The translations under genes were made by a program, and so were the position numbers. Positions 9,361 to 37,872 of a stretch of DNA of 37,872 nucleotides are shown here, one piece after another. Each line of letters starts with the position of its first letter. Within the stretch, counting starts at the first letter, position 1. Source of the DNA: a virus; IMG/VR virus record IMGVR_UViG_3300047491_000158, positions 1 through 37,872 of that record; one strand, written 5' to 3'. The notes beneath the pieces were generated by a model. That model was not told the origin of the DNA. It worked only from the letters and a program-made list of their open reading frames with translations, and searched no databases.

Positions 9361-9414
9361 AAATTTTCCTATCTACATTTATATCTCTCTCCTTAAACAG
9401 ATTTTATTAAATGT
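9361..9414 (-). promoter_or_regulatory. Longest intergenic gap: start-stop mini-ORF, two Shine-Dalgarno sites, possible late promoter
   Basis: This 54-nt gap is the largest non-coding stretch in the window. Read on the minus strand it holds a strong AAGGAGAG site, an ATG-TAG start-stop pair (9378-9373) at ideal spacing from it, and then a second AGGA site (9370-9367) serving the gp25-like ATG at 9360. TATAAATG (9383-9376) differs by one base from the T4-type late promoter TATAAATA. ACATTTA (9414-9408) and TAAATGT (9381-9375) form a perfect 7-bp inverted repeat that would place the first ribosome site in the loop. It could be an internal promoter or a translation-control leader for the wedge genes. 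All three readings are inference; only the motifs are seen. Confidence 0.4.
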
Positions 9415-13322: not shown

Positions 13323-13562
13323 TTAACTACCGCCCCCGTACTGCAACCTAGTCAACTGCTCACGCAAACCTGCAATCCTCTGATTATCCTCTTTTATTAA
13401 AGTTTCAAGGATGGTTTTGAGTTTGTTTAGGGTTTCAATTTGAGTCGCTGCCATTGGAGAAACGACAACCTGTTCTGGAGTTTCCTGCCAAGTGCCATCG
13501 GGAACCCCATGTGTCTTTAACGCTTCTTTAAGTTCTTCTGCTGTCAGTTCTTTGTTACTCAT
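13323..13562 (-). CDS. Small helical protein between two giant structural genes
   Basis: 79 residues. The N-terminus is acidic and helical (ELTAEELKEALKTHG); residues about 38-72 form a second helix with heptad-like spacing (LNKLKTILETLIKEDNQRIA), and the end is GGGS. It overlaps the 3' end of the 3,780-residue gene by 8 nt (ATGAGTAA), with a GGTGGA ribosome site 8 nt upstream inside that gene. Overlap plus a good ribosome site supports a real, translationally coupled gene rather than a shadow. Size and composition fit a small coiled-coil adaptor or chaperone for one of its large neighbours. That is inference; no family is recognised. Confidence 0.7.
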   Translation of the reverse strand: MSNKELTAEELKEALKTHGVPDGTWQETPEQVVVSPMAATQIETLNKLKTILETLIKEDNQRIAGLREQLTRLQYGGGS

Positions 13563-22500: not shown

Positions 22501-24897
22501 ACTGATACCAGAATCAGGAAGCCAAGAGGTGCAAGGTTCATAAGGGTTAGTTGCCGCCCACCAACCGGGGATAAAACCTAATGCTGTTGCACCAGACAAA
22601 TCTATAGGGTCAGTAGGAAGATTGTTCCAAAGGATGCCGATAGCAATGTTACCACTTTGGGGAGAAAGAACTAAATATCCGTTTTCAACAGTACAGAGCC
22701 ATTGATTCCCTACAATTAAATCAAAATTGTCTTTTACTTCCTCTGCGGTATAAAAGGGTTTCCAAGGGACATCATCCCATAAATAATAAGACGACCAAGT
22801 TCTTACAATAAAAGTAGAACCATCAAACAACCCCACATAAAGGGTATCACATTCGGCCTCATTAGCCCCGTATTTGAATCGGAAAATATCCCTGTTACGG
22901 GAATAGAGCTTGGGTTTTGTATAAGTAGGAGGGTAAATCATAGAATAGGCAGGAGTGAGTGACGCCTGTAAGAAATAGAGTTTTTCTCCCTCAAGTTGCT
23001 GTCTTGCCTCTGTACCTATCTCTACGGGAGAACCTAGATAATTACCTACCACCCCATAATTATTCTTGGCAATATAAACATCCCCAAAAGGAATCAAATC
23101 CTGATTTGGAAAATCTTGGACAATAGCGTCTTGGAAGTCTACTGTATGGAGATTAGGAAAAGCACCTTGACGAGTAAATACTATCGTATCCCCAATACCA
23201 TCGTCTATTTGGCGTATCAATCCTGTATTTATCTCATCTACTTTATCGCCTTCTGGTCTGACAGATGCCGCTTGATATGTATCAAAACCATCAAAACCAT
23301 TAGGGATAGAACCCGTCCCATCGGGAACCTCCAACACACCTGACTTACCTAACCCTTGCGAGGGACTTGTAAACGCACCTTCTTCTGGTAAGAAAAAAGC
23401 ATTTCCAAGATACATACTAGAACCGGCATCTATGCTGTCAGTTATGATTCTTGACGGACGCAAAGGTTGTGGCACACTATTAAGTGCCACCCCATCGTAA
23501 ATCACATCATTAGAAAGATACTGCTTGTCAAACAAGGCACTATTTGGGTTTGCTAGTGCTATGTCATTAGGGTTAAAACGTATCTGCCCTGTTGTCATAG
23601 ACACAACAGCCGAACCTTGGGTGGGGAAAGTGTTTAATAGCGTCTGGTCATTACTTACAAGTTGTACAGTTAGGTATTTCCTGTTTCCAAATCGAATAAG
23701 AGGACAACCCATCGGGTCAGGTAGGGGGGATAAGAATAAAGGTTGTGAATCAGCACCTAACATAGAACCCACGATGCCATCTGATTTTCGGTCAAAGTTG
23801 CGGTAGTAATACCAAAGAGTCTTGCCTGCATGAAGTTTCACATACGCAGGATTGAATTGTAGTTTGCCATTGAATTGCCCCATAACACCGGATAGTTCAG
23901 GATACGGGCCGAAGTCAAAATCTGAATCAAGCATGTTATCTGCAAAGACTTGTATGCCCTTAAAAGACCCGTAACTCTGTTCATCTCCTATGCCGATACT
24001 GCTGGCGGCACTAGGATTAGAACCTAATCTGAAAACGGAAAAGGTGTCAGAAAAAGTAGGGTTTCCAATACCAGATAAGTAAGCTCCTATTGGTAAGTTT
24101 GCTATGCGGGGATACATTTGATACTTTAACCCAAGCATCAAAGGCCCCAAGTTCTTAGGTGATCCGCCCTTAAAAGGCTCCCATCTTAAAGCAGTAGCAT
24201 TCCAACCGAAGCGGGTCTGATAACGGTCATTTCTGCTCCACCAGAATGTAGCGGGGGCTAAAACGTATTGGACTTGAATAATCTGGTCACCACGCTCTGA
24301 TGAGATGCCACCACCTAATGAAGTTATGTCTGCTGAATCTGTTATCTTAAAAGTGTTATTGGTTGATGTAGGGTTATCCGTTTGTAAAAAATAAAGATAA
24401 GGTTTAGTCCCATTCCTACCTAAACTTGGATCGTCAGGATCAACCCAACCCTCATCATTGTAGTCGTGAACATCACCACGAGCTACGACCAACGATATAA
24501 CGTGATCAAGAAGTTTACTCTCGTTATTGGTAACTCGAACAGCAAGAGAACCGTCAGTATATGTGCCTACAACAAGAGTATTTGGGACTACGGTGTAAGT
24601 GCCGGTATCAATCCACCAATCGTTATCTGTGCTATAAGCAAGTTTACCGGAATTAGCTACCCAAACAAGATATTCTATCGGGGTTGTGCCGGGAGCATCA
24701 AGAGAAGCTACCCTATATTGGTCTGCGGAGGCATCTGTAAAAATAGGATAGGAATCTCCCTCAAACAGATAAGGATCAAGACTTCTAGTTTTGCTTATGC
24801 CCCTAACAACACCAGCATTTACCTCGCCTGTTGTGGCGGCATTTACAGGTGAAACTCTTGCACCCCTAATGACTTTGCCAGCAAATTTTGTACTCAT
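13555..24897 (-). CDS. Giant (3,780-residue) beta-rich virion protein in the baseplate cluster
   Basis: An uninterrupted frame of about 11.3 kb. The ATG at 24897 is preferred over the adjacent in-frame TTG at 24900 because GAGAGAG then has better spacing. The 203-residue gene stops 9 nt upstream. The protein is almost wholly beta-rich, with no signal peptide and no membrane span. Short modules recur: strand-turn motifs such as MTTGQIRFNP, PITGYLNFSQ and DYTTGNIELLS, and 'GDxLxI...GxYxVxxV...LxL' modules near 997-1050, 2843-2897, 3303-3362 and 3427-3530. The last 200 residues turn helical and charged (TLMATVDKLNE at the end). Similar small beta modules appear in the leftmost wedge protein, supporting a baseplate role. 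Because it lies between spike and gp25 genes, it could be a peripheral baseplate ring, a fibre platform or a long flexible fibre. No catalytic motif is evident and I recognise no family for the whole protein. Confidence 0.8.
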   Translation of the reverse strand: MSTKFAGKVIRGARVSPVNAATTGEVNAGVVRGISKTRSLDPYLFEGDSYPIFTDASADQYRVASLDAPGTTPIEYLVWVANSGKLAYSTDNDWWIDTGTYTVVPNTLVVGTYTDGSLAVRVTNNESKLLDHVISLVVARGDVHDYNDEGWVDPDDPSLGRNGTKPYLYFLQTDNPTSTNNTFKITDSADITSLGGGISSERGDQIIQVQYVLAPATFWWSRNDRYQTRFGWNATALRWEPFKGGSPKNLGPLMLGLKYQMYPRIANLPIGAYLSGIGNPTFSDTFSVFRLGSNPSAASSIGIGDEQSYGSFKGIQVFADNMLDSDFDFGPYPELSGVMGQFNGKLQFNPAYVKLHAGKTLWYYYRNFDRKSDGIVGSMLGADSQPLFLSPLPDPMGCPLIRFGNRKYLTVQLVSNDQTLLNTFPTQGSAVVSMTTGQIRFNPNDIALANPNSALFDKQYLSNDVIYDGVALNSVPQPLRPSRIITDSIDAGSSMYLGNAFFLPEEGAFTSPSQGLGKSGVLEVPDGTGSIPNGFDGFDTYQAASVRPEGDKVDEINTGLIRQIDDGIGDTIVFTRQGAFPNLHTVDFQDAIVQDFPNQDLIPFGDVYIAKNNYGVVGNYLGSPVEIGTEARQQLEGEKLYFLQASLTPAYSMIYPPTYTKPKLYSRNRDIFRFKYGANEAECDTLYVGLFDGSTFIVRTWSSYYLWDDVPWKPFYTAEEVKDNFDLIVGNQWLCTVENGYLVLSPQSGNIAIGILWNNLPTDPIDLSGATALGFIPGWWAATNPYEPCTSWLPDSGISFGFFRNPANLDSTLPIPDVQNEIRITDEVLQNSVSGTPYVFLDHVPLQDVPGYDYGVYFSQSLVATQEDEDALLVQKYLIQCEDVIYRFDQKKFDWIEASSSKARIEKATSTIAFGKTAIVPESFYGNPQISKGLYVTEDGGTLQFQTLDTDFILPQGGTTGTAILTETYGAYVTFGAQGIVIQGSDLLTDTSVDFLDVTHPIQAGYRIDIDNTGISGSYIVLQVITNHQLQLNIPVAATPDTPVVWRAYTGYPDSVYDPSLVADMIYKEFNHLLTEPFKVRMLSSVGVLPATETTPTLKANVAEALASGRPINIRYGLVQATAFNTAQMVALTKTSLGTIANNVLVIPNTTNARFTTGSFSLQLGADTFTHASGKLVGVTAFSTDPYDHIEYLISPWNTYATGTIRFGSLILTQYNSADVLYVEEFQPATDVPALTVEFSPITGYLNFSQEDMDAFNGIKAYFVQQMITEGRKDVAISPLLGAFSFSTPVPTGAAIEVEYWMADLSGAKVEPQITEFLPVFVRNEVAVKVGPNSYTFNAAKRTVDQRIEPIVTVGAVQQNFGRTDFVVAYPPELNGLGCITFTAQTFPDYQQVVVNYAVWEALGGERGYESSLKPVYRPPFFITAGQKRFGLRGDRANEFVAGQMLRIGEDCFYIQKTQYYPYDGTEQSNITGIYIYPPTVNEVGSRAPGNDIITVVSAEPVTTQVPNPDDPLNPILTTAPAGFMSTIDLTVFPFQPVSKGQRNIVFQGDLMQFAVPGNLLEVANCPFTIAESKLSDDGMYTSISVTSTFQQNFTVADNPTIKLSYRPVYPPQPRKFIGCGPTLDTEPVTLILYSEGIPGQTLTPNTDYKIDYTTGNIELLSPMQNALQPYQKLILSFTKQATLQPFILNGAVICPRISAEFLNGIIPDDVNGVLGSTLSGTYTYRNPDTYYVAIPTMKQYVGEVTQQAVQEMQASKAANGPVRTTSSSKNWDQGRIGLIAQRQDLCDKDWAARRILDFYNSTIVYFEQIEEAITGGYIGDRDGKFRFWIGYGMQYPAPGYEDSISGNLITRNLFSEVFSSQSGIWFIYQTTDPLIDPATAYLNDELIYAPSGILADVKNITINLEQLDPLMYAQASLVRNDIDDLLLTGAGEPVLESVFYNNSHITNLNLYGVYKHMFEPQQFSRLFPTQTESFSMTFPGIGAVPPSNVGFYSAGRMYNGKLRSTTGKPIGQLKNPVVGDIKNVSTADLSQRRARARIWGYFPNGIEAGKFYTDDTPPLPSPAILEPCVIAFPCNLGDVPINPETGFPDQYQLLTSTGTVPDANKGDPSMFVPGFTAGSEVSWGQPDGSIYPAVTARVYDTRYMGLFVKEVKYGCVILFKNDQGTAVVAPNNVCVSITDTTSIQADNFPIRQGDTIFEVPSLLKEITPPISTEDQAKVLPGYRNGFDLLVQSDGKIIDTTFPSKYDTTPNNPLAPKELLGQNPPLPMSYIGGEINFFYDSAKPLHIPALDGSDKDDSGDYQIPYMATGNSEYKCLSVMPEFLSLSTILSPMPIIEFEDYPQEILAIDGWVVDTYASPTEIPATLMTSVNEEPAAPLKGADKFDLLFVQSEAPSKFSNGVPVRGPQGIWTIGDVSYDAANEVSLIEPPRFVTQTTPPIAPPLPNTGSPVGYTIENAMVFVDGEHSSDDGHPQSHLPLAGVKLVYYPNYAPTGRPTTILDFSSVPDFSLNNGLLSGVGNLNNIYLSDSDNTIKIKLIARWDDDILNYPPPPETPPYPWQQPGGEVVLTFTIKGTGTLTVEVEDWAGRFYNGVIINPVQFGVSYPIVVNPADNKQIIIDAYFPIWGVGTPPTNAWFLPYSVSGVGPTEKWETLYGFEYSFDIEAVASDTAWIDTDRLTFHETIDLRHAKERGYTYPTSGLLLETGLVVNTVSVGYNTGVISESSINKWVNGWFNFLWFHIPYPFTFKPRELVANHSAGGNWSAETILLSEEGSLKVMAFEGYNNTSITATNAEFSVAPSVSSRNSLAICSGTGETESYFNPSVAVTNNCRNLDSTIQNITVASGSLNRVQKGDTLVISQSADATNIASTKVGTYIVRHAIKSSTANYYECIRTTITGSNTDWCPIHFPTVVDATVNTPTSVDVILTDLAPVFNGSGFVVGQRLYIIRGDDFSDNAQITNTVTSGEITNIDVLTSTLTVTDFTDGAGTSILATTFRDIAQASTYVTGMSYVPVNVSCNSYAITEYDPNLPSNNCVGLHDTLSTGSIFGFHQIILTRKGANTFTVGGSDNIYPVSTPATGVGVGALEANLNEHNFSYNFKSNPQDPIYSHVPYLLDLTQITTDQWKQINTDSGLLTLAVPCILPSTTMECIFRAKEGVFLEPSMPRTCMDLNYTKPLVVYNGNFLPDPDTTYYDYERYIGMRSANAYDTGAVIPANTPEKVSFTVKSIRRFHEVLENGLSEIEPLRYVYEIRRGIMNSFSADADSQITTVTANGFYMNWYASYPKPADVWYDGTGPHYGTNLGPFTSSDVNVKAGDTFRRLDEDGNVIEERIIKEVMNAYTITLNPPVLVEPFDAANSRFEIYIQNSPVPHEQSNEQLLGMLTDKLVLQSNAHYSDKTGGYVKATGIYADDVNKLYDDSNTSTFSALGVAAGDIVLIDPAGWLPPPTGQTALHPPERGFRPIGDQSVPDRSTPPYVAGHPKVLDDNRGYYRVQSVVNTPETYLQINPVNTFAGTFDDPVIFGGNGYEYTVYPTVSSTTPPYQEEGQMDLRPTASWDIINRTYANDGYSVRPFSYKIIRPSKLFSDQAIDVILSTRERMLTWIEMINIFLLGWKSGSYFIFQRDKHIENLGNPDNPELGLGVPSDELLADMTGLVWNAPYANNSGCMSLLDRRFWIGDERLDWLTSDPTNPTKMRKWPAVPPSDPYTAFNSDPSPDRPILLDWINEILNKKDKFRDSRYIWVNYRTNKVYGTLSQIQQYDIALPKKRQEEKDLATLMATVDKLNE
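13571..13576 (-). promoter_or_regulatory. Ribosome-binding site for the 79-residue gene
   Basis: GGTGGA on the minus strand, 8 nt before ATG at 13562. It lies within the last codons of the 3,780-residue gene and supports coupled translation of the small downstream gene. Confidence 0.55.
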
Positions 24898-24906
24898 CAA
24901 TCTCTC

Positions 24907-25520: not shown

Positions 25521-27947
25521 TCAGGCTCCAATTATATGGGATTTAGCTCCAAGTCCCCAAGTTGAGTAGGGAAGCCCTGTTAATACTTCCAGCGACCCTG
25601 CACATATTATTGGGCCGGAATCTGGGCCTGAAAGTGGGCCCCCCAAATAGACTCCTGCCGTTCCCCTAACAGTTGCTGTACCCCCTGTAGCAACCAAACT
25701 GGCCGATGTCTGTCCCGTCATAGAAGCTGCACCCGCTGTTGCAGTTAGAGAAACAGCACCCGCTGTTGCTGTCCCTGTGATACCGGAAGCACCCATTGTC
25801 ATTGTGCTGGACACCGCTTGAACCGTCCAGACACCCGACAAAAGAGTGTAAGTCATATTCCCCACAAGAACTTTTGTTGTATGGTTGCCTAATCTAAATT
25901 CTTCTTCCCGATCTCCAAGATTGTAAGTAACCTTTTCACAAGTCATACCCGGATACATCGGAGTGTAAGACCTGTCGTGCAAAGGCAGATTAGTAGGAAG
26001 AAGATACTTGGGGCCGCTGAAAGATTCTTGGCACTTGCCATTCACAGAAGATACTAAATTATCTGTGGACATATTTATCTGTTTAACACCGTCAAGAGAG
26101 ATGCCATCGTTACCTATGAAGTTGATTTGGGAAGCGTTACCCTCAATCGTATCACCTTTGATAAAGATTTTCTTTTCGGCTTTAACCCATACGTTAGTAC
26201 GTCCCTCAATGTCTACCGAAGGTCTATCTGTATCGCCTCCGTTTGTACCTGAAATGCGCTCGATGGTAGCAGATTCATCGTTAGTAGTTCCACCACCATA
26301 AATCTTAACCGCGCCTTGTTCTGATTTAAGGTCAAGACTGTTTCGAGATGTTGTTGTAAAAGAATAATGGCCTCCAAGTAACCAAGTTAAGTCCCCTCCT
26401 ACTGCAATCTTTAACCCGCCTGTTAAATTGATCTCTGCGGAATTTTGTTTTGGGTCACCCCCGATAGATGCCTTGAATTGACCTTGTTTATTAACACCCC
26501 AAAAGGTTTCTGTGCCTGCTAGTGCTAAAGGTGGCGTTAGATGAAAAAGAGTTGCAAGTTGATCTCCCATTGTTGTTGGAGCGGCAGGAGAACCCTCAAG
26601 TGGGATGCTTGCGGCTTCTAATCTAGGAGCCGGAACAATCCCATCAAAGATAGTAGCAGTAAGAGGCATTCCATATTGGGCACGTCCTTTTTGTGAGAAA
26701 GGATCATTACCCACAACACTCCCAAGCACCCACTCTATAAAGGGCTTGTTACTTGGAAACTGTCCTTCCCCTGTATTATCAGAGCGATTAGGTAATCTTT
26801 CAGCATCGAACATATCTGTCTGTTCTGTAACGGGTAAAATGCCATTAGAAGTATGAGTTACTTCAAGACGATATTCTGTCAGAGTCGGTGTTTTAGGGTC
26901 TAAAACTGCATTAGAAGCACTTTGAGCCGCAACCCTGAAGATTGGTTTGCCCCCATAGATAGCATTAGGGAGAGTTCCGTTTGTGGCGTATCCTGTATCA
27001 GTAATAAAGCCACCGTTCTTCAAGAACACATAAGGGTCAATATAAGGGTCAGGATTTAAAAGACTCTTGCCTAAAAATCCTTTTTCCGCAGATTGAATAT
27101 TTTTCCTGAATATCCTAGCTGGAGTAAGAAGTCCATTAGGCGCAGTTTCATCGTCTGGCAACTCCGCTTCAGTAACAGGATTTCCACTTATAACCTGTTG
27201 AGGTCCGTCCCATTCCTTTCCATCTGAAACCATCATAGGAGAAAGGAAGGTAGCATCTCTCTGCACCATACCTGCATAAAGACGTGTGCCTGCCAAAGCA
27301 TCAAAACGTTGTAAGGCTCTTGTAACTGCGGCTTGGTCTTGATCCCTTAATCGGAATTCGTTGCCTCGCCTGTTGGCAAGAGTCACGCCTTCATCAAGCA
27401 CAAGGTCTGAACCTTGAGCCGAAGATGCAACTATGTTTCCGGGTTGGATATGCCGAAGTTTATGTCTGATTCGTCCAAAAGCAGAACCATACATATTTTG
27501 AAGTCGGGAAGTACCTGTATCACACTCATCAACCGTAACTGAACAAGAAGTTAGCCACTCACGTCCTAACCAAGTTCCCGGAATAATCCAATTCAAAATT
27601 ATAGGTGTTTGCGTCTTTTTAGGAGCTGAACTGTTTTGTGGCACCCAACCAACAACACATAAATCCCCTATCTGTGGTAAGGCACCAAAGAAATGTCGAT
27701 TGCCTGCACCCGGAAAAGTCATAGGGATAGGCACTCTTTCGAATGTTTGAGAAGTTCCTACGATAGTATGAAGGGTTACAAAGAGTTCTTCATAGTCAAT
27801 GTTAACGACTTTGGCGATGCCTAAACCAGAATTAGCCTCTGGCACTTGGGTTTCGTTTTGCACATCAGCACGAAGTTTAGAAGCATCTACTGCACCTACT
27901 GTTAGTCCACTTACTTCGGATAAAGGTCTACTACTGCGTTCTTTCAT
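25521..27947 (-). CDS. Baseplate spike protein (gp5/VgrG/Mu gp45-like) with OB fold and beta-helix
   Basis: 808 residues. Residues about 41-128 look like the OB fold of tail spikes: GLGIAKVVNI, a loop, then PQIGDLCVVGW and TPIILNWIIPG. Residues about 515-620 contain short strands alternating with Gly/Asn turns (GGDLTWLLGGHYSFTTTSRN, SVDIEGRTNVWVKAEKKIFI), the pattern of the triple-stranded beta-helix in gp5 and VgrG. A second low-complexity stretch at about 716-772 (GITGTATAGAVSLTATAGAA) continues it with Ala/Thr/Gly. Such spikes are trimers that sit under the hub and puncture the outer envelope. About 380 residues between OB fold and helix are unassigned, making it longer than typical gp45-type spikes. 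No lysozyme domain is visible here; the hydrolase is in the hub instead. The ATG at 27947 overlaps the hub stop (ATGA), with AGGTGA upstream. Confidence 0.83.
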   Translation of the reverse strand: MKERSSRPLSEVSGLTVGAVDASKLRADVQNETQVPEANSGLGIAKVVNIDYEELFVTLHTIVGTSQTFERVPIPMTFPGAGNRHFFGALPQIGDLCVVGWVPQNSSAPKKTQTPIILNWIIPGTWLGREWLTSCSVTVDECDTGTSRLQNMYGSAFGRIRHKLRHIQPGNIVASSAQGSDLVLDEGVTLANRRGNEFRLRDQDQAAVTRALQRFDALAGTRLYAGMVQRDATFLSPMMVSDGKEWDGPQQVISGNPVTEAELPDDETAPNGLLTPARIFRKNIQSAEKGFLGKSLLNPDPYIDPYVFLKNGGFITDTGYATNGTLPNAIYGGKPIFRVAAQSASNAVLDPKTPTLTEYRLEVTHTSNGILPVTEQTDMFDAERLPNRSDNTGEGQFPSNKPFIEWVLGSVVGNDPFSQKGRAQYGMPLTATIFDGIVPAPRLEAASIPLEGSPAAPTTMGDQLATLFHLTPPLALAGTETFWGVNKQGQFKASIGGDPKQNSAEINLTGGLKIAVGGDLTWLLGGHYSFTTTSRNSLDLKSEQGAVKIYGGGTTNDESATIERISGTNGGDTDRPSVDIEGRTNVWVKAEKKIFIKGDTIEGNASQINFIGNDGISLDGVKQINMSTDNLVSSVNGKCQESFSGPKYLLPTNLPLHDRSYTPMYPGMTCEKVTYNLGDREEEFRLGNHTTKVLVGNMTYTLLSGVWTVQAVSSTMTMGASGITGTATAGAVSLTATAGAASMTGQTSASLVATGGTATVRGTAGVYLGGPLSGPDSGPIICAGSLEVLTGLPYSTWGLGAKSHIIGA
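25526..25531 (-). promoter_or_regulatory. Ribosome-binding site deciding a TTG start
   Basis: TTGGAG on the minus strand, ending 7 nt before the TTG at 25518. It lies in the last codons of the spike gene. With no ATG nearby, it supports TTG as the start of the 203-residue protein. Confidence 0.6.
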
Positions 27948-30900
27948 TTTTTCACCTGATCAGTTGCGATGTTCCACGCATTTTCAATTTCATTAGTTAA
28001 TTGGTCAGCCTTGTTCGCTAATTGATCGGCTTGTTGCTCATAAGAAGCGGCAACAGATTGTATTACAGATACCAAGTTACTTCCTTGTGTGTCTAACACC
28101 TTACCCCGTAATGCTGCCTGTGAAGCCTGCCAATTGGCAGTAAGCCTCATGCTGTTAGCAATAAGTTGTTTGGTCGGCTGGTCAGTATCATTAGCAACAA
28201 GTGCTTGTGGAATGGCTGTTCCGGGTGAGGCGTATTTAATAAACTCTGCTTGTGACACAGAATCCAACAACACGCTGGCTTCTGCCAAACGGCAAGAACA
28301 TACCTTACCTTGTTGGTCTGCGGGTTTCAATGATGCTAAAGAATAAGCGGCATTGTTAATAGGAAGTTTTTGTACTCCATCTTTACCTTTGTCAGCAATC
28401 CAGTTGGCTAGGTTCATTTGTATCATATTCGGGTCGCCTGTTTTAACTGCCAATCCTAAATCAAGTAATTGTGTGTCACTTAATTTACCATTTAAGTTGG
28501 CAACGACCTCTTTTTCATTAGTAGTAGCTGCATCAGTACTTCTTAATGTTTCTGATTTGGTTACCAAGTTGCCTCTGGCATCTTTCATTGGTTTTCCGTC
28601 AGCACCTGTTACGTTAGTCTTAACCATTAAAGGTTTTCCTTCAATATAAGAATCTATCAATTGCGTTATCAAACTCTTATCCAATAGACTTACAGGGTCT
28701 TGGTTTGCCAGCACATCAAACACTCCATCGGGTTCTATGGTAATATCCCGGCCATAACGATAAAGGCCATAAACTTCATAACCATTAGCATCAGACACAG
28801 GAATAACAGGTGTAAATCCTAACTTCTCCTGATTGCTGGTTGTCGCCTGTTGTAATTGAGTAACCGGCTGTACCGTTATATTAAAAAAAGCTGCTATGGA
28901 TTGATTAAATGCGGCCATAGTTTTCTGAAAATCTGCGGGTTCTGTTGTTTCTTGTAAATCTAATGCCCAAGCATTTTTATTTTGCACAAGATTGTTAGCA
29001 ACACTAGCACCGTAAAATTTACTCAAAGTTGTCCAAACACTAGATAATGATTTTTGCTCTGAATAAACAAAAGCATCACCTTTCTTGCCGGTGTTGCCCA
29101 TATAATTGTAAGATGAAATAGGGAGGTCAGTATTAACAGAATAACCCCCGTCCGTAACGATAACAGTTGGTACTTCAAGAGCCTGTACGGGATTTGTAAT
29201 TATAGAATCAGAAGCCTTAATAGCAGCTTCGGAAGCAGCTTTTAAGGACGCTTGCACTCCTGCAAACCAATCTCCCATAACTTCATTAAGTGTTGCGCTG
29301 GATGCCGCACTATTTCTGCGGGATGCCGTTTCAATTGCACTTTGTTTTATTGCATTGATAAGTGGTAAATCTACAAATTGCACATTAGAAGCTTGTGTCG
29401 TATTAGTTACAGGAACCTTAAAAGATGACCGTGTAACAGCATAACCAAATTGACGGAACTCGCTCGTAGGCACAACAGCATAAGGCTCATCTTTTTTACC
29501 CGTAGCGATAGTAACCCCGTTCTTTGGCTTACCTACACCTAATGAGGCTTCTGGCAGTAAACCATCAGTTCTTTTAACAGGGTTCTTCAAAAACATTTTT
29601 ACGTTGGCAGGGTTTTTTAATTCAGCATCGGCAGTATACGTCATACCGTTATTGTCGAAAGTCAGTAGTTTCTGACCTTGTTGTAAAGGCTCTGGATGGG
29701 AGCAAGAATAATATCTATAATCTCCTGATATATCAACTCCGCTGAAAGAGGCTTTCTTGTTTGACAAGAGATTCAATAGTGTTGTTGTGGATGCCTTATC
29801 TATATAATCCCAACTGATTCCTGTCGTAAGCCCATATTTTTCAGTCATAATTTTAAGCACTTTATCCAAAGCGGCTATGTTTATTTTAGTCGCTCCGGTT
29901 AAAGTCTGGTTGAAGTCATTTTCCACACTAGCTATTTGCTGTGTTAGTTTCTGTTGTTCAGCCTTACGAGTTGCGATTTGGGTATTAATATTATTTTTTG
30001 CTTCTTGATCTGTTGGTGAATCTGTTAACCCAACCTTTCCTTTTGCAAGATTGTTTATCTCTGTTTGTAATTTGCTGATTTGTTTTTGGTATTCTGCTTG
30101 TTTCGCAGAAATACTAGCCTGATTTGCCGCATAGTTTTTAGCGGCAGCAGTCAAGTTTATGACGTTATTTATATTTGATTTCTTGGGCGGGTCTTGGAAA
30201 GAGAATACTATGTCTGTTGTGTCACTATCAGACATAACATAAGTCCCATCTTCATTGACTCTCAATATCTTCGATGTAACAGCCGCACTTATGAATCTTT
30301 GCAATACTTCAGGGTCGTCTAACTTGTTTAGAGCAACACCCCTTAAAGTTTCAACAGGGCTTAAATTATCAGGGTCAAGAGCCATCACTACATTAGGGAA
30401 CCCAACCATATGTATTTTGCCACCGCCATCTAATGTCGTTAGAGGCTTTTTTGGCAGGGTGGGATTGCTTAAATCTATAGCTTCTATCCCCTCTTTAGTT
30501 GGGTCACCGGGAGCAAAAAACTTCGCCCGTTTTGCTACCAACTGCAAAGTGGTAGAACATTGACCACCCATACTGAAACTGTGTGATACAGAGGTCACAT
30601 AATAATAAGTGTCTATGCAAGAAATGTAAACTGGATATCCAGGTCTGATTTCAGGACGAAGAGGAATAGTAACTGATCCAGCGTTCATACCGGCATTAAG
30701 TATTGCCATTTGGCTAATAGCCATGTGCTGTACCCCTAGTGGGTCAGATACAGCCGTAGTTTCAAAAGAACCCTCACGCCAACCGAATTGACTAATCAGC
30801 TTGTAATCAAAGAAATCACCACCCGGCTTATATTCATTCTCTAAACCTAATTGAATACCGGCAATCGTTTCTCCCTTGCCCCTCATATAAGTCACAGAGG

Positions 30901-32950
30901 GTTCTTTCTCATCGAAAGTCAAATTGATAATATCAATATCTTCTATGCGATAAACTCGGGACGACTTGGTATCCAGATTATACATAGGCGGCTTGAACAC
31001 AAAGTCACCATCAACGTCTTGGTAAAACTCAAAACCTGTGACTTTCAAGACATTCTGGATAACATCCATTTTAGTTTCGTAGGTGCTTTCAAAAAGGGAT
31101 AATTGCCCCAACTTGCCGGGGTCCCAAGCATAAGCTATCATGTCCAATACATTAGCCGTTAGTTCACCGCCTTTAACATCTTTCTTACTTATGGTGCCAT
31201 ACTTGAAGTCATCTTCGGCAAATAGACTGAAGCCGTCTATATTACTATCCGACCCTTGACCGGCTGGTTTGAATTTTGCTCTTAATGCTCCTGTCTTGTT
31301 CTTGCTGTTAACACGCCCTAAAACTTCTGCCTGAATAGAGTTATAAAGTTTGCCTGTAACACCGTGCATACGCAACTTGGCTATTCGTGTACTGAAACGC
31401 TTTTCCCAATACTTTTGAATCAAAGAATACATTTGAGCTTGTAATACGCTGGCATCTATATTTGTTTTTTGTTGAATAGCAGCAGATACGCCTGCGGCAT
31501 CTCCGACTGTATTGTGAACAAGATAGTAAACAATACTGTAAGGAGTCCAACCTGTTGTTTTGGGGCCTGCAAATTGAATATCGTTACCGGAATTTGGGGG
31601 TTTGTTTGCTATAACGGCACCTTGCATAGCTGTCTTTTGGAACTGCCAAAAGTGTAACATAGATTGACATTGAACAGTTATCGTTTGAACACCTACGCTT
31701 TGTGTGCAGCCTACTTGTATGATGATTCCATGAAAGACTTGGTAGTAAGGGTAAGCAAGCACTTTCTCAATGTCTTTATTATTCAAGCCAGATTTTTCAA
31801 GGAGAGAGGGGCCTAATTTGGGGTCTTTTAGAGGTTTTATATCTTTAGGGTTTGTACCTGTATTTAATTCTTCAGGAGGTGGAGGCAAATTATCTGCTCC
31901 CGCAGGAGTCAAACCTTTACCGGCATATTCGGATACTTTATCTGCATTAAGAGCTTTAGCAGGCCCATAACAATTAACTGTGTCAGAAGGTTTAAAATTC
32001 CAATAACTATTTTTTTCTTGGAGACTACCATCAGTACTCCATTTAGGAGGAGGGTAACTGCCCATGCTACCGGGATGATAAAAATGAGTTGTATTATAAC
32101 CATTGTCAGTTCCATCAGATGCTCTTTTTTGAAGTTCAGAAATAACAAGATCGCCATAGTTAGCTAACTCGCTAGGGGTGGGAGCCTGCGCTGTGCTGTA
32201 ACCCGGAACATAACCGTTTGGACCTGCTTCATATTGAGGTATTGTTCTATTCGAACCGCTACCTCCCATCGCAATATCCCAAATAGATTTATCATTTTGA
32301 ACTTGTCTGTTAAATAAAGTGGCAATTACCATAGGTTGTTGAGCAGGTAAGGTTCCTACTTCTGATTTAGTGACAATGATAGCAGTTAACACATCTAAAG
32401 AAACACCTATCCGTTCAGCCCAATCTTGCATTTCTTCTTTTGTATAAGAAGTGTATGTAAATTCATTTCCAGCAGGGTCTGTTATAACATATTTAGTTCC
32501 TTCTGGTGGTTCTGCTTCCCAATTCGGTGTGCTATTATTAGTAAAACCCCCTCCGTTACGGATTAGGGTTGCCCCCGAGGTACTAACAGCACCTTGATAT
32601 TGTGGTTCTGCTATGGTCGAATACATCCCTTTAACAGCAAAGTACCCCCTATAATAAATGTTCACTTCCAAGCCGGGAGTGATAATAAACTGTGCATCTC
32701 TGATAAATGCTTCGTTGCCGTGCATAGGAACAGACAAAGAAAAGTTAGCAGACATAGAACCCGGCTCTACCCCTGCTTCTACTGAAACTTCTGTCACATA
32801 CTTCTGTACATCTAGATTTCCTTTGCACTTGGGGCAACCGGGGATTGACAAATCACCATTGATGTAAACAAGTGCATCTGGGGTTTGTTGGACAACTTTC
32901 TTTGTCCTCATCTTCCAAGAGCCGATATAAGGTCTTGACTCTATGCTCAT
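27944..32950 (-). CDS. Baseplate hub (gp27/gpD-like) with inserted SleB-like cell-wall hydrolase and long C-terminal extension
   Basis: 1,668 residues. Residues 1-115 and about 400-810 show the hub fold: SMSANFSLSVP, GLEVNIYYRGYF, YYQVFHGIIIQVG, TITVQCQSMLHFWQ and, at the end, YVTSVSHSFSMGGQCSTTLQ. Between them, about 165-320, sits a domain like SleB/Hydrolase_2 lytic enzymes: TAIIVTKSEVGTLP with likely catalytic E197, TLFNRQ (211-216), PTPSELANYGDLVISEL and TTHFYHPGSM (287-296). It is bounded by a Gly/Asn-rich linker and a PPPPEE linker (356-361). A CPKC pair (C39, C42) may bind metal. After the hub fold come some 850 further residues, starting with a coiled-coil candidate (about 930-985, AEYQKQISKLQTEINNLAKG); they match nothing I know. 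The hub is the trimeric centre of the baseplate; the inserted enzyme would open peptidoglycan during penetration. ATG at 32950 follows AGGGG by 8 nt. Confidence 0.85.
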   Translation of the reverse strand: MSIESRPYIGSWKMRTKKVVQQTPDALVYINGDLSIPGCPKCKGNLDVQKYVTEVSVEAGVEPGSMSANFSLSVPMHGNEAFIRDAQFIITPGLEVNIYYRGYFAVKGMYSTIAEPQYQGAVSTSGATLIRNGGGFTNNSTPNWEAEPPEGTKYVITDPAGNEFTYTSYTKEEMQDWAERIGVSLDVLTAIIVTKSEVGTLPAQQPMVIATLFNRQVQNDKSIWDIAMGGSGSNRTIPQYEAGPNGYVPGYSTAQAPTPSELANYGDLVISELQKRASDGTDNGYNTTHFYHPGSMGSYPPPKWSTDGSLQEKNSYWNFKPSDTVNCYGPAKALNADKVSEYAGKGLTPAGADNLPPPPEELNTGTNPKDIKPLKDPKLGPSLLEKSGLNNKDIEKVLAYPYYQVFHGIIIQVGCTQSVGVQTITVQCQSMLHFWQFQKTAMQGAVIANKPPNSGNDIQFAGPKTTGWTPYSIVYYLVHNTVGDAAGVSAAIQQKTNIDASVLQAQMYSLIQKYWEKRFSTRIAKLRMHGVTGKLYNSIQAEVLGRVNSKNKTGALRAKFKPAGQGSDSNIDGFSLFAEDDFKYGTISKKDVKGGELTANVLDMIAYAWDPGKLGQLSLFESTYETKMDVIQNVLKVTGFEFYQDVDGDFVFKPPMYNLDTKSSRVYRIEDIDIINLTFDEKEPSVTYMRGKGETIAGIQLGLENEYKPGGDFFDYKLISQFGWREGSFETTAVSDPLGVQHMAISQMAILNAGMNAGSVTIPLRPEIRPGYPVYISCIDTYYYVTSVSHSFSMGGQCSTTLQLVAKRAKFFAPGDPTKEGIEAIDLSNPTLPKKPLTTLDGGGKIHMVGFPNVVMALDPDNLSPVETLRGVALNKLDDPEVLQRFISAAVTSKILRVNEDGTYVMSDSDTTDIVFSFQDPPKKSNINNVINLTAAAKNYAANQASISAKQAEYQKQISKLQTEINNLAKGKVGLTDSPTDQEAKNNINTQIATRKAEQQKLTQQIASVENDFNQTLTGATKINIAALDKVLKIMTEKYGLTTGISWDYIDKASTTTLLNLLSNKKASFSGVDISGDYRYYSCSHPEPLQQGQKLLTFDNNGMTYTADAELKNPANVKMFLKNPVKRTDGLLPEASLGVGKPKNGVTIATGKKDEPYAVVPTSEFRQFGYAVTRSSFKVPVTNTTQASNVQFVDLPLINAIKQSAIETASRRNSAASSATLNEVMGDWFAGVQASLKAASEAAIKASDSIITNPVQALEVPTVIVTDGGYSVNTDLPISSYNYMGNTGKKGDAFVYSEQKSLSSVWTTLSKFYGASVANNLVQNKNAWALDLQETTEPADFQKTMAAFNQSIAAFFNITVQPVTQLQQATTSNQEKLGFTPVIPVSDANGYEVYGLYRYGRDITIEPDGVFDVLANQDPVSLLDKSLITQLIDSYIEGKPLMVKTNVTGADGKPMKDARGNLVTKSETLRSTDAATTNEKEVVANLNGKLSDTQLLDLGLAVKTGDPNMIQMNLANWIADKGKDGVQKLPINNAAYSLASLKPADQQGKVCSCRLAEASVLLDSVSQAEFIKYASPGTAIPQALVANDTDQPTKQLIANSMRLTANWQASQAALRGKVLDTQGSNLVSVIQSVAASYEQQADQLANKADQLTNEIENAWNIATDQVKK

Positions 32951-32951
32951 A

Positions 32952-34358
32952 TTATTTACCCCTAGTAAACAAGAATAAACCTTTACCTGTCGCTTGTTCT
33001 ACCTGTCGCTTTTGTGTACTGCTATTAGCCGATGAAAACCCGCCACTTTGGGCTTCTGGTTGATTCAGGGATTCCAACCCCTTACCCACTCTTGAACCTT
33101 TGGGTAGGAAAGGAGTGTTCATAACTGTCAACCCTTGAGAACTCAAACGAGGATAACCGTCCCCATCTATTCCAATAGAATAATTTCCCGGTTGATTTCT
33201 GGCTTGGTTCTGTATGCCAGCATAACGAGGGTCACTTAAACTTGGGATGGGAGATTTCATAGGCAGAACGGTAAACACTTGCTGTGCCAAATCTACCATG
33301 CTTGATGCTACAAATTCAATACTAAACTCCATCCCGCCTTGCTGTGTGTTTTCATCATAGGCGTATGTGAAAGACTCCATGTGTCCGTAGTAAATCCAAT
33401 TATCATAGCGAATAGATAAAGCCCCTACAAAGTGATTGGCAAAAGACCTTCCTATCGTGTCATAAATATAACCGTTGTTACGGTAAAAATGATACATATT
33501 CATCCAGTTCTGCCAAGCCGCTGAATCCCTTTTGCTTGAGAACTGATAACCACGTTGACCTGATACGAACCCACCACATTTGGCTGTGATAGATAATTTA
33601 ACCTGTTCTTCACCCCACGCTTGAAAAATGTAACCATAACGGGAACGATCACTAAACTGTTGGACTTTCGTATAGTTAATAGTCAAAGATGAGGGGTTAA
33701 TCAACATGACCAAAGGCGGTGTGTTAAGGGATACCGATAACTGCCAAGCAATATCCACAGCCGCATACATATCTGCTATGGCAGGTTCCCCCAACCGTCC
33801 TATTTTATTGCCTTGATTATCTGTTTTCTCTCCCGTAGATGTGATATTAGAACTAACCCCACCCGAACTATTTTGAGTGATAAACTCCCCCACAGAACCT
33901 ACGTTATACTTGAGATTACTTAAACCAGAAGCATTAAGTGCCACTCTTGATGCTGTGTAACCGTCATTATTAAGAGGGGCAGAGGCCGCAGAGATAGCAT
34001 CAGGTGACCAGATGCCGTTAGCCTTTTGCTGATTTAAGAAGCCTCCATCTTCACCGTAAACCAAAGGCGGTTCAAGTTGGACAATAAAAGGTGAAAGCTG
34101 CCGAAGCATCGGCTTGGTGGCATTGATAGGAACGGTAGTATTCTGCTCATAGTCTATTTTAAGATTGGGGCCAACCTGCATCCCCCTATAAGCCAACGGA
34201 TGCAAGCCCTGATAAGCCTGTGATGCACCTGTTTTTTGGACAGCCGAAGTAAAGCGTGTTTCTTCATTTTGAGAAGCTGCCGCTATATCACGGGTTTCAG
34301 GGGGGACAATAACCGGATATTGAGTTGTTCCTTCTTGTGGTAAATTAGCCAACGTCAC
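32952..34358 (-). CDS. Tail tube/hub adaptor candidate, larger of two paralogues
   Basis: 468 residues. Residues about 215-365 share a domain with the 240-residue protein encoded just upstream: NPSSLTINYTKV (221-232), FQAWGEEQVKLSI, RNNGYIYDTIG (303-313) and DNWIYYGHMESF (329-340). The first 210 residues are polar and unmatched; the C-terminal 90 are Ser/Gln/Gly-rich and probably disordered. Located between tape measure and hub, it occupies the place of Mu gp43 or T4 gp48/54/53-type proteins, which join hub, tube and tape measure. No LysM motif is obvious. Start choice is open: GTG at 34358 overlaps the previous gene by 14 nt but leaves only 2 nt after GGGGAGG, whereas the in-frame TTG at 34352 has the usual 8 nt. 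The hub gene starts 1 nt after its stop. Confidence 0.68.
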   Translation of the reverse strand: MTLANLPQEGTTQYPVIVPPETRDIAAASQNEETRFTSAVQKTGASQAYQGLHPLAYRGMQVGPNLKIDYEQNTTVPINATKPMLRQLSPFIVQLEPPLVYGEDGGFLNQQKANGIWSPDAISAASAPLNNDGYTASRVALNASGLSNLKYNVGSVGEFITQNSSGGVSSNITSTGEKTDNQGNKIGRLGEPAIADMYAAVDIAWQLSVSLNTPPLVMLINPSSLTINYTKVQQFSDRSRYGYIFQAWGEEQVKLSITAKCGGFVSGQRGYQFSSKRDSAAWQNWMNMYHFYRNNGYIYDTIGRSFANHFVGALSIRYDNWIYYGHMESFTYAYDENTQQGGMEFSIEFVASSMVDLAQQVFTVLPMKSPIPSLSDPRYAGIQNQARNQPGNYSIGIDGDGYPRLSSQGLTVMNTPFLPKGSRVGKGLESLNQPEAQSGGFSSANSSTQKRQVEQATGKGLFLFTRGK

Positions 34359-35067
34359 TACCTCCCCTAGTATTTGTTACGGAGGCAGGCATTCTTACTG
34401 TTGTTTCATTAGTGTTTTGTGTTAAAGGTGACACATTTTCAGTCAGATTCTTATAAGGCATAGACCGGAATCTTTGAACTTCACTCTCTACTTGAAACGA
34501 AGCTGTGAGGGAAAACATATAAGGCTGTTCTACTGTTTCTGTCACGTTGAAGTTATTGAACCAACCGTAGTAAATTCCCCCATCAAAAGTCACTTTGATA
34601 AAACCTTGAAAAACTATCTGCCCCGAAGCATCATAGATACTGCCATTGTTATGAAACAACGCAAGCATATCTAGATACTTGTCATAGGCAATAGTTTCTC
34701 GTCTATTGCCTTCTGTATTGATTGCACCCAATCCCCCTGTGATATTAGACATACCCGAATAGAGGCGTACAAAGCCTCCTGTAGCCATGTTAAACTCGAT
34801 AGTGCTTAACCCTTCACCCCAATGCTGTTCTACGAAGCCACCTCTTGTATTGATGCGCTGGATGACTTTAGCGTAGTTGAGAGACATAGAAGCAGGGTTG
34901 ACATGAAGCACCATCACAACATTGTCAGGAAGGATGCTGGTTTCATGATCGGGGGCAAGTATATCAAAGACAACTGGTTTCCTGTTTAATTCAGGAACAT
35001 AACCATCAGAGGGCGCACGGAAAGCCGACTTGAAGATTGGAATTGGCTTTTGTTTACCTATGTTCAT
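34345..35067 (-). CDS. Tail tube/hub adaptor candidate, smaller paralogue
   Basis: 240 residues, almost entirely the domain shared with the following 468-residue protein: NPASMSLNYAKV (57-68), TRGGFVEQHWGEGLSTI (74-90), NNGSIYDASG (140-149) and GGIYYGWFNNF (163-173). Both copies end with a strand containing FQVE or IEFV and a short Met/Pro-rich tail. The pair looks like a gene duplication followed by growth of the second copy. The position after the tape measure and before the hub suggests tube-terminator or hub-adaptor rings stacked on the hub. The ATG at 35067 overlaps the tape-measure stop (ATGA). The nearest purine-rich site (AGGGA) is about 13 nt away, so translation probably depends on coupling. 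Function is inferred from position. Confidence 0.7.
   Translation of the reverse strand: MNIGKQKPIPIFKSAFRAPSDGYVPELNRKPVVFDILAPDHETSILPDNVVMVLHVNPASMSLNYAKVIQRINTRGGFVEQHWGEGLSTIEFNMATGGFVRLYSGMSNITGGLGAINTEGNRRETIAYDKYLDMLALFHNNGSIYDASGQIVFQGFIKVTFDGGIYYGWFNNFNVTETVEQPYMFSLTASFQVESEVQRFRSMPYKNLTENVSPLTQNTNETTVRMPASVTNTRGGSDVG
34361..34367 (-). promoter_or_regulatory. Strong ribosome-binding site for the 468-residue gene
   Basis: GGGGAGG on the minus strand inside the 3' end of the 240-residue gene. It is 2 nt from GTG at 34358 and 8 nt from TTG at 34352, so spacing favours the TTG and would shorten the protein by two residues. Confidence 0.6.
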
Positions 35068-37872
35068 GGTGTGTTCAGAATCCCTGCATCTTTAGCCTTC
35101 TGTAAAATTCTCAAAGCATCGGCTCCACCGTTATAGACATGAAGAACATAAGTTGGGTTGTTAGTAGTTGTTCCACCTCTCCCACCTGTACCGGGTTGCA
35201 TAGCAGCTAGTATATCTCCTGCGGCAAATCTATAAGGCTGTATACGTCCATTACGTTCTACAAAAAGGGCGTCTTGGGTTGATATAGTAGGTGCTAACCC
35301 TGATTTATTTACAGCATCTGCTGCACTAGAATTAAGCTTGCTTGTATCTACAGGTAATCCCGCTATTATGTCATCAACAACAGACAAAGCATCTTCATAA
35401 GACACATTGTTCTTGCCTAACAAACTCATAACATCAGCTCTTTTCCTATCCCTTTCTAACTTTGCTGCCAAATCATCATTGATAAGTTTATCCCGTCTTG
35501 CTTTTTCTGCTTTGTCAGGGGTTTTCTCATCAATAGAAGATGTGGCATCCCCTATTATGCCTTCTTGCTTGTATATATCCAAACGGGCTTTTTTCTCTGC
35601 TTCATTAGCAAGCTTATCTGCATATTCTGCATATTCTTGACTATATCCTACTTGTCCTTTATCGTAATCTTTTATGGCATCTTTTCCTGCTGCTTTTATT
35701 TGGGCTTCATACTTTTCAACTTTTTCCATCCCCACTTTATCTATAAGTGCTTTTTGAAGTTGAGCAGCTCCCTCCGTATAAACCACATCCTCAGCAGTAG
35801 TCACTCCTTTTTTAAGAGTACTACTTGCCACAGTATCCCTTATACTTCTTCTGGTCTGTATTAAATTTTGATTTACATTTTTGCTTTTCCTTGCCGCATC
35901 AATTTTATCTTGTATTTCTTGTTTCTGTCCAGGCTTTGCTTTCTTTAACTGCCCTGTTAAATTTAGTATTTCAGAGTCTAGTGCGGCATTTCTAGCGTTT
36001 AAACTTTCTATTTCTTTTCCTATATTTGTTATGGCTTCATCCTTTGCTTCCTTTTCCTCATTTTCCCCAAACCCTAATATATTTGCTATTTTTGCTACAT
36101 TCGTATCAATCTTTGAAAGAATCCATTGAACACCCTGTTCTAATAATTTTGTCATTTCACTAGTGTTACGCGCCACCTCCTGTGCCAATTCTAAATCCTT
36201 ACTGATTTGTTCTTTATCTGCTGTTTGAGCAGTCCCCCAAGCCATCGCAAAAGAATTAAAATCTTTATCAACTTTTACATTTTGTTTTATAGATTCATCC
36301 AAGCTATAATCGCCAAATTTGTCTTTAAATGCTTTTATCCAATTTCCTTCCTTATCCATGAAAATACCTAATTGATTTACTAACTCTGTATTTTGATTAT
36401 AAGCGTCAGGATCAGTTTGTTTTTTTAATCTTTCAAAACTTGCGGCTATGTCAGACAAAGCCGATTTCATAGCCATAATTTCTTCTGTGCTTTTACCTAA
36501 TGTGTTTTGAAAACCTATCATTTCGGCTAGAGCCTGATCGCTATTCACATTCATATTTTGTAAAGATTTCTTATTAGCCGCCCACAAAGCATTAGCCTCT
36601 ACAAGTAAAGTACCTATTGGACCCATCGCTTGTAAATTACGAGAGGCACCCGCTAAACCACCTATTGTTTTTCCTTGTGCCACATTCCAAGATGCTTTGA
36701 TCGACCTGACTAACTCATCATCAGTCCCTTTTAAGGTAAGCATCAAATCTGCAATTTGTTTTTCAGATTGAGAACCTAATTTTTTGATTACATCATCGGT
36801 GCTTGTTTCTTTTGTGATGCCTATTTTACCTAAAGCGTCCCAAAACAACTTGGCTTTATCTTCTGGTTGTGCTTTTAGTTTTCGTAGCATTTCATTAACA
36901 TTGGCAGTAACATCGGCAGATATTATTCCCATAATATTGCCTAAATTACCACCACCGGACATAAGAGCTTTTTTGACTAAATCCGTATAGTTTAACCCTT
37001 TAAAACCTTTACTCAAAGATTGAGTCATTTCTTCTGCTTTTTTCTTACCAACTATTTTGCTCAAATTAGAGAGTAAGCCAACTGTTTCCTCTATACGAGT
37101 GTTATACTGACCCATCCCTGCTGTTGCCTGCATCACTATGCCAAAGAATTTCTTGGTCGAGAAATTAGATTGTTGTGCTGCCATAGCTATCTCACTAAAT
37201 CTCTCATTCACACCTTGCAAAGTCATTCCAAGTTCGTTCATATAATCAGATGTAGCACCAGCAAGATCACCTGTTGATACTCCTAATAACTTCGTATAGG
37301 TCAAAGCACTTTGAGTTGCTTCTTTTAGATTCTCAATTTCGCTGGCACCTCTTTTAGATTCTGTGGCTATCTTTCTAAATGATATATTAGCGTCAGCATA
37401 AGCACCTAATATCTGTATGTGATCTTTTGCTGTTGTCCCCCATATCCTGTTGAAATTGAAAGCCTCTGCAAAACCACGACTTATCTTATTTAAACTCTCT
37501 CCCACACCTTCATATCGCTTTCCCAAATCGTTAGCTGCAACTCCTGAATCCAACAAGGTTTTATTTAACTCTTTGGTTTGAGCGTCAGCATCTATTATTA
37601 TCTTTACGAGTGCTGCAAACCCCGCAACCAAAGCCCCAATAGCCATAATAGAAGGACCGATTGTTTTAAGCAGGCTTCCTATACCTTCTGTACCAGCAAA
37701 CTTCTCCGATGCTCTCACCCCTATATTAGACAGACCCTTGCCCATTCTTTTAGCTATTACGTCAGATATTCCCGCCATATCTTTGGAAAAGACACCACCA
37801 ACAACACCCTTAACATCACCTTGAATTGCTTTGTTTCGTTTTAAAATAGATTTCTGATGTTTTTCTAATCCT
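35064..37872 (-). CDS. Tape-measure-like protein, 5' end outside window
   Basis: The frame is open from the right edge through at least 935 codons, so the N-terminus is missing. An ATG at 37778 is internal: the frame continues 31 codons upstream without a stop, and no ribosome site precedes it. Counting from that Met, residues about 37-63 are hydrophobic (a likely membrane-inserting segment), followed by long helices rich in Ala, Lys, Glu and Gln (FSEIAMAAQQSNFSTKKFFG) typical of tape measures. A charged coiled-coil region spans about 560-800. The end (about 840-904) has the recurring tape-measure C-terminal pattern: DALFVERNGRIQPYRFAAGD, a Gly-rich stretch, then YVLHVYNGG. Such proteins fix tail length, fill the tube and dock on the hub. 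The C-terminal docking role fits the adaptor and hub genes immediately downstream. The 3' end is TGA, overlapping the next start. Confidence 0.78.
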   Translation of the reverse strand, partial: GLEKHQKSILKRNKAIQGDVKGVVGGVFSKDMAGISDVIAKRMGKGLSNIGVRASEKFAGTEGIGSLLKTIGPSIMAIGALVAGFAALVKIIIDADAQTKELNKTLLDSGVAANDLGKRYEGVGESLNKISRGFAEAFNFNRIWGTTAKDHIQILGAYADANISFRKIATESKRGASEIENLKEATQSALTYTKLLGVSTGDLAGATSDYMNELGMTLQGVNERFSEIAMAAQQSNFSTKKFFGIVMQATAGMGQYNTRIEETVGLLSNLSKIVGKKKAEEMTQSLSKGFKGLNYTDLVKKALMSGGGNLGNIMGIISADVTANVNEMLRKLKAQPEDKAKLFWDALGKIGITKETSTDDVIKKLGSQSEKQIADLMLTLKGTDDELVRSIKASWNVAQGKTIGGLAGASRNLQAMGPIGTLLVEANALWAANKKSLQNMNVNSDQALAEMIGFQNTLGKSTEEIMAMKSALSDIAASFERLKKQTDPDAYNQNTELVNQLGIFMDKEGNWIKAFKDKFGDYSLDESIKQNVKVDKDFNSFAMAWGTAQTADKEQISKDLELAQEVARNTSEMTKLLEQGVQWILSKIDTNVAKIANILGFGENEEKEAKDEAITNIGKEIESLNARNAALDSEILNLTGQLKKAKPGQKQEIQDKIDAARKSKNVNQNLIQTRRSIRDTVASSTLKKGVTTAEDVVYTEGAAQLQKALIDKVGMEKVEKYEAQIKAAGKDAIKDYDKGQVGYSQEYAEYADKLANEAEKKARLDIYKQEGIIGDATSSIDEKTPDKAEKARRDKLINDDLAAKLERDRKRADVMSLLGKNNVSYEDALSVVDDIIAGLPVDTSKLNSSAADAVNKSGLAPTISTQDALFVERNGRIQPYRFAAGDILAAMQPGTGGRGGTTTNNPTYVLHVYNGGADALRILQKAKDAGILNTP

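Follow-up and report, generated by a model that had tools for sequence, protein, structure and literature searches.

In phage T4 the lysozyme belongs to gp5, the spike. In phages that infect Gram-positive bacteria, tail-associated lysins (Tal) are hub-like proteins with wall enzymes, mostly appended after the hub part. Another arrangement is known from the Anabaena myophage A-1(L). In the available parts of its published description, gp15 is a trimeric hub with an N-terminal lysozyme (residues 56–265) and endoglucanase (266–430), plus a peptidase (736–899), two of these three domains having been shown to be active, and the spike is described without an enzyme (PMC10966104). Exchange of enzymes between relatives of this hub is not described in those parts. 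Domain recombination in phage tail proteins and in lysins and endolysins has general precedent (PMC10684548); where the accessible portion of that article turns to baseplates it treats spikes and fibres, and it yielded no example of a hub slot that unrelated wall enzymes occupy in turn.

We analysed a 37,872-nt stretch of viral DNA (hereafter, the window), which encodes a hub with a predicted wall enzyme. The likeness to gp15 (PDB 8kea) lies in the gp27-type hub and in wall enzymes placed N-terminally and near the C-terminus; the enzymes and junctions are different, and the hub has otherwise diverged. Because A-1(L) already has a wall enzyme on its hub, this part of our finding joins a known type, and the initial annotation, which had called a hub-borne enzyme beside an enzyme-free spike a different solution, overstated the case. 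Modular exchange in tail proteins and lysins is likewise known in general. The new part is the interchangeable slot; we found no description of a conserved hub slot refilled by unrelated enzymes in the open-access literature, which is weak evidence of novelty. Our favored reading, which we consider probable, is that the window hub has a slot beside the spike holding a divergent SleB/MltG-type enzyme, exchanged as a cassette among related phages.

The hub gene and its neighborhood

The ORF at 27944..32950 (minus strand, as are all window features below) encodes 1668 aa, with a gp27/gp44-type N-terminal half and a long C-terminal extension. An AlphaFold2 (AF2) model of residues 1–845, based on an alignment of 60 sequences, had a mean pLDDT of 68, with values mostly 80–95 in the conserved parts, and displays the two tube-like barrels with a domain between them that characterize the hub fold. 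Fold comparison gave Z scores of 23.9 for the Milano hub, 22.3 over 299 residues for Mu gp44 (Foldseek E 5.7e-9), 19.5 over 309 residues for T4 gp27 (Foldseek E 2.2e-5), 18.8 for the cyanophage A-1(L) hub (8kea chain A) and 11.7 for NF5 Tal; VgrG and pyocin R2 also matched. The match to solved hubs covers residues 22–808. Together with the matching of phrog_196 'baseplate hub' by 21 of 60 relatives, these fold matches show computationally that the modelled protein is a gp27/gp44-type baseplate hub, as the initial annotation had proposed. The start of the hub fold (residues 1–118, 32597..32950) is kept in relatives, as are the EFYQDVDGDFVFKPP and RPEIRPGYPVYI blocks of its remainder (residues 397–840, 30431..31762).

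The position of the gene also fits a hub, with the tape measure three genes upstream and a probable spike next downstream. The order is tape measure protein (904 aa, 35064..37778; PF10145 at E 1.3e-5, below the curated cut-off), a 240-aa protein, an upstream baseplate protein of 468 aa (32952..34358), the 1668-aa hub, the 808-aa probable spike (25521..27947), a 203-aa protein and a 3781-aa ORF. This last ORF (13555–24900) lies downstream of the spike region; in relatives there are mostly ∼2290 aa there.

The 808-aa product may be the spike. It is without Pfam match and of steady length in relatives (homologues of 798–831 aa); one of 20 relatives matched phrog_9992 and one of 20 matched phrog_694. 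The spike had initially been described as lacking an enzyme. No enzyme family was found by Pfam in 25521–27947, in agreement with that description; it is the identification of this ORF as the spike that stays tentative.

An insertion at one site of the hub

Computation shows that residues 119–396 of the hub (31763..32596) are a real insertion, at what we term site A. They were missing from the first six relatives found, and the 98 hub sequences compared fall into two length classes here: 242–326 aa in 32, 2–30 aa in the other 66, and nothing in between. In some relatives unrelated enzymes take the place of the window cassette. In the AF2 model this cassette sits between strand 95–101 and strand 402–418, early in the hub fold. 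The insertion had already been recognized, at residues 165–320, which do correspond to window positions 31991–32458 on the minus strand, and the Gly/Asn-rich and Pro-rich linkers ascribed to it are present (residues 119–164 and 336–396). Its range, however, was drawn too small, the whole being 119–396 and the catalytic part ∼165–335.

The cassette begins with the N-terminal linker (residues 119–164, 32459..32596), which is Gly/Asn/Ser-rich in sequence with pLDDT mostly <50. The predicted SleB/MltG-type lytic transglycosylase domain, assigned by profile match, follows at residues 165–335 (31946..32458); helices 171–228 and 259–279 are mostly at pLDDT 73–89 in the model of residues 1–845, while residues 280–305, including the HFYHP part, fall below 50. 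Residues 336–396 (31763..31945) form the C-terminal Pro-rich linker, with PPPPEE and repeated PK/DPK and again pLDDT mostly <50, and end in a docking segment, GPSLLEKSGLNNKDIEK. Many hubs filled at site A share this SLL..GL...IE segment, regardless of which enzyme they carry. The GC content of the window insert equals that of the hub (40% vs 40–43%), so the insert does not look recently arrived.

Nearly all of the relatives are uncultured contigs, and we asked whether chimeric metagenome assemblies could mimic the exchange of enzymes described below. We regard this as extremely improbable: the pattern is all-or-none at a single site, inserts occur in 32 of 98 hubs from many samples, reading frames are open through both junctions, and the flanks and docking segment are conserved.

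Site A of one related hub (L028, 2343–6626) comprises 25 aa, with a docking-like segment (STAKDLGLDGVGLED) among them and no enzyme; its slot has been emptied or was never filled.

Identity of the window insert

Homologous inserts were found in three other hubs (L010, L029 and L041), and wider searches yielded no further members of this family of four. The motifs pointed out in the initial annotation are correctly placed: K195-S196-E197-V198-G199, N214-R215-Q216 and H289-F290-Y291-H292-P293. Residues invariant in all four inserts include the predicted catalytic acid E197 (32360..32362), N214-R215 (32306..32311), W224, Y251 of a Y(S/A)(T/S) motif (32198..32200), and F290 and H292 of the aromatic/His motif F290-Y291-H292 (32075..32083); H289 and P293 vary.

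Single-sequence library searches with the window insert returned no curated family match above threshold, and the match to Hydrolase_2/SleB or another family that might have been expected from the initial annotation did not appear; Pfam SleB (PF07486) matched neither the window nor any of 41 related records. MltG/YceG (PF02618) did not exceed its cut-off in any of the four inserts, the L010 insert alone reaching E 0.005–0.065, below cut-off. Queries with single inserts or homologues against Pfam, PHROG, PDB, phage-record, viral and bacterial collections gave nothing new. Weak matches to p300, patatin, DUF724, DUF3606 and Hedgehog were judged to be chance or fold-level only.

A profile was therefore built from the four inserts and compared with profiles of 30 SleB (PF07486) and 30 YceG/MltG (PF02618) stretches from bacterial genomes. 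Against SleB it scored 28.9 over 100 columns (column shuffles 9.3 ± 1.7, maximum 17.4), and against YceG 27.8 over 38 columns (shuffles 12.9 ± 2.2, maximum 21.5); six further enzyme sets taken from the hub sequences gave 10.9–18.5. Because hhalign's own probability for the match is 28%, we take it as support and not as proof. Searched against 398 bacterial genomes, the insert profile gave only chance-level matches. The low hhalign probability, and scores near background for single insert sequences against the enzyme profiles, would suit a domain that binds a receptor or has a structural role, has nothing to do with peptidoglycan and resembles SleB/MltG by chance. We consider this very unlikely, as 0 of 300 column shuffles reached either the SleB or the YceG score, and the slot is otherwise mostly occupied by wall enzymes.

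The acid, NR and aromatic motifs stand in SleB order along the 100 aligned columns; N214-R215 falls on the NR of both profiles and the aromatic/His motif near the SleB a-h-h motif, although E197 does not line up precisely with the SleB acid. The acid of E. coli MltG is known from its E218Q variant, which is inactive (PMC8135044). E197 may correspond to E218 by local motif and by spacing to NR, a correspondence that rests on a short motif; the Glu-to-NR distance is 17 in the window and L041 inserts, 16 in L010 and L029, and 16 in MltG. The insert thus shares the order of E, NR and aromatic residues with MltG and SleB, yet unlike them it falls below every curated cut-off, has a different middle part, and lacks the MltG motifs YNTY and GLPPG, with YST and then APTP in the window instead. 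Since both profiles match, the spacing fits the MltG acid, and the active sites of MltG and SleB overlap or are shared (PMC11533991), we name the insert SleB/MltG-type and leave the choice between the two open. The initial designation as a SleB-type hydrolase thus survives in this broader form, to which motifs and profile point, with no curated family at threshold behind it. The sequence evidence supports, without proving, a divergent SleB/MltG-type lytic transglycosylase.

Folded alone by AF2 from the four sequences, the insert gave a poor model (pLDDT 59), and a fold search with it returned no match and no SleB/MltG entry, which is an absence of information and not counter-evidence.

A decayed, inactive domain kept for wall or sugar binding would also be divergent and without a family match, and flexible linkers are as compatible with a binding module as with an enzyme. 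We think such decay unlikely. The acid, NR and F-x-H are kept across four inserts, even though the other three are only 27–33% identical to that of the window, and elsewhere the slot is filled by recognized enzyme families.

Enzymes at four baseplate sites

What the initial annotation missed is that this position is occupied in relatives by unrelated enzymes. Site A holds Peptidase_M15 (Peptidase_M15_3; L016, E 1.7e-12) in a cluster of 16, Phage_lysozyme2 (L047, 1.6e-11) in a cluster of 6, SLT (L044, 1.4e-19; L034, 3.2e-6) or Amidase_2 (L031, 5e-9). The site-A insert of L032 (10355–11014) is family-less, with a weak Glucosaminidase-like match at E 0.15, and is a possible unknown wall enzyme.

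Three further sites, all empty in the window, are filled in some relatives. At site B (window equivalent 29534..29653) there is Glucosaminidase (L006, 1.1e-7; L074, 9.9e-8) or M15 (L083, 5e-4; L080, 4e-4, both below cut-off); the labels of SLT-like (L058, L066, L069, L076, L085) and some M15-like (L059, L064, L079, L145) occupants come from motifs or mutual similarity, not from above-cut-off family matches. Site C (28931..29293) holds N-acetylmuramidase (L061, 2.2e-4, just below cut-off) or a CHAP-like domain (L084, similar to the insert in L039), the CHAP-like label in both having the same basis of motifs or mutual similarity, below family cut-offs. Site D lies in the protein just upstream of the hub (window residues ∼101–150, 33909–34058) and has M15 in L033 (1.1e-12) and M23 in L133 (3.1e-10).

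Sites A–D are almost mutually exclusive. When a hub has an enzyme at A, the other three sites are free of large inserts, with the sole exception of L038, where M15 at site A is accompanied by a 443-aa insert at site C (14003–15331) for which no family was found. No enzyme was recognized in the hub or its neighbors for 39 of 90 tree rows (see below); at most one enzyme per phage is therefore supported, exactly one is not, nor do these rows support a need for a wall enzyme.

Several individual loci deserve mention. L001–L004 form an insert-free hub clade nested among site-A carriers, with no wall enzyme recognized in the hub or neighboring ORFs examined. The hub homologue (14647–17298) of Tunturi_5 (L007), an isolated Acidobacteriota jumbo phage, is annotated 'tail protein with lysin activity'; it has no site-A insert and no Pfam match. 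In the upstream protein of L036 (7908–9995) the site D insert consists of two similar repeats of ∼110 aa with no Pfam match. An extra 323-aa ORF (9024–9995) lies between upstream protein and hub in L055, with no Pfam family above cut-off.

Exchange at site A

On a hub tree of 90 rows, made by a quick method without bootstrap and with the insert removed, site-A enzyme types require at least 14 changes; five would suffice if each had arisen once. On this tree, enzyme type does not follow hub ancestry. Hub pairs about 70–80% identical outside the slot bear different enzymes: L018 (M15) and L023 (lysozyme), like L017 (M15) and L020 (SLT-like), are 77–80% identical there, and L011 (M15) and L041 (SleB-like) 78%. 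At site B, L069 and L079 differ in enzyme with hubs 84% identical. For six such pairs DNA identity, linker excluded, was 0.60–0.87 in the flanks vs 0.32–0.39 (near chance) in the inserts, and the junctions were sharp. These computations show that unrelated enzyme families interchange at site A of related hubs, which suggests that the phages exchange the wall-cutting enzyme like a tool bit, leaving the surrounding machine unchanged.

The match of the hub model to the A-1(L) hub, and the lysozyme, endoglucanase and peptidase with two demonstrated activities reported for its gp15 (PMC10966104), could instead mean that the window hub simply has a fixed enzyme domain of the usual kind and that the slot is nothing special. 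We think this unlikely, because close relatives have at least five recognizably different enzyme types in the slot, with repeated changes on the tree.

A model for the slot and its wider reading

On the reading of site A as an interchangeable enzyme slot, the gp27/gp44-like ring protein of a large myophage-type virus would hold that slot in its first, tube-like part. In the window it would contain a divergent lytic transglycosylase of SleB/MltG type, with E197 as the catalytic residue and the two flexible linkers as a tether. By analogy with T4 and A-1(L), a trimer would surround the spike and so place three enzyme copies beside it. Tail contraction would drive the tip into the envelope, the tethered enzymes would cut peptidoglycan locally, an activity predicted from motif and profile likeness, and the tube would then pass. 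Related phages would have replaced the cassette at this position with M15 peptidase, Phage_lysozyme2, SLT or Amidase_2, or would bear the enzyme in other baseplate slots. Exchange probably accompanies encounters with hosts whose walls differ in chemistry, which would link slot content to host.

The likeness to T4 gp5–gp27 lies in the hub fold and presumably in opening peptidoglycan for the tube; the predicted window enzyme is inside the hub chain, whereas that of T4 is in the spike. Tal proteins are also hub-like with wall enzymes; the difference is that the window domain lies within the hub fold.

More broadly, we lean towards the view that large phages of this group keep standard baseplate slots: one early in the hub fold, two towards the C-terminus of the hub and one in the upstream protein. 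Recombination would plug unrelated wall enzymes into these slots, with a phage almost always having a single one. The enzyme would change and the hub stay intact, with the docking segment marking the slot.

The wall must be cut at phage entry, and little is known of what fits the entry enzyme to a given host. Exchange of whole enzymes in a fixed slot makes such matching testable, because the enzyme found in the slot can be compared with wall chemistry where the host is known. The slots also point to possible wall enzymes without known family, such as the L032 type and the L036 insert, and site A marks a place in a hub where nature tolerates insertion of a domain.
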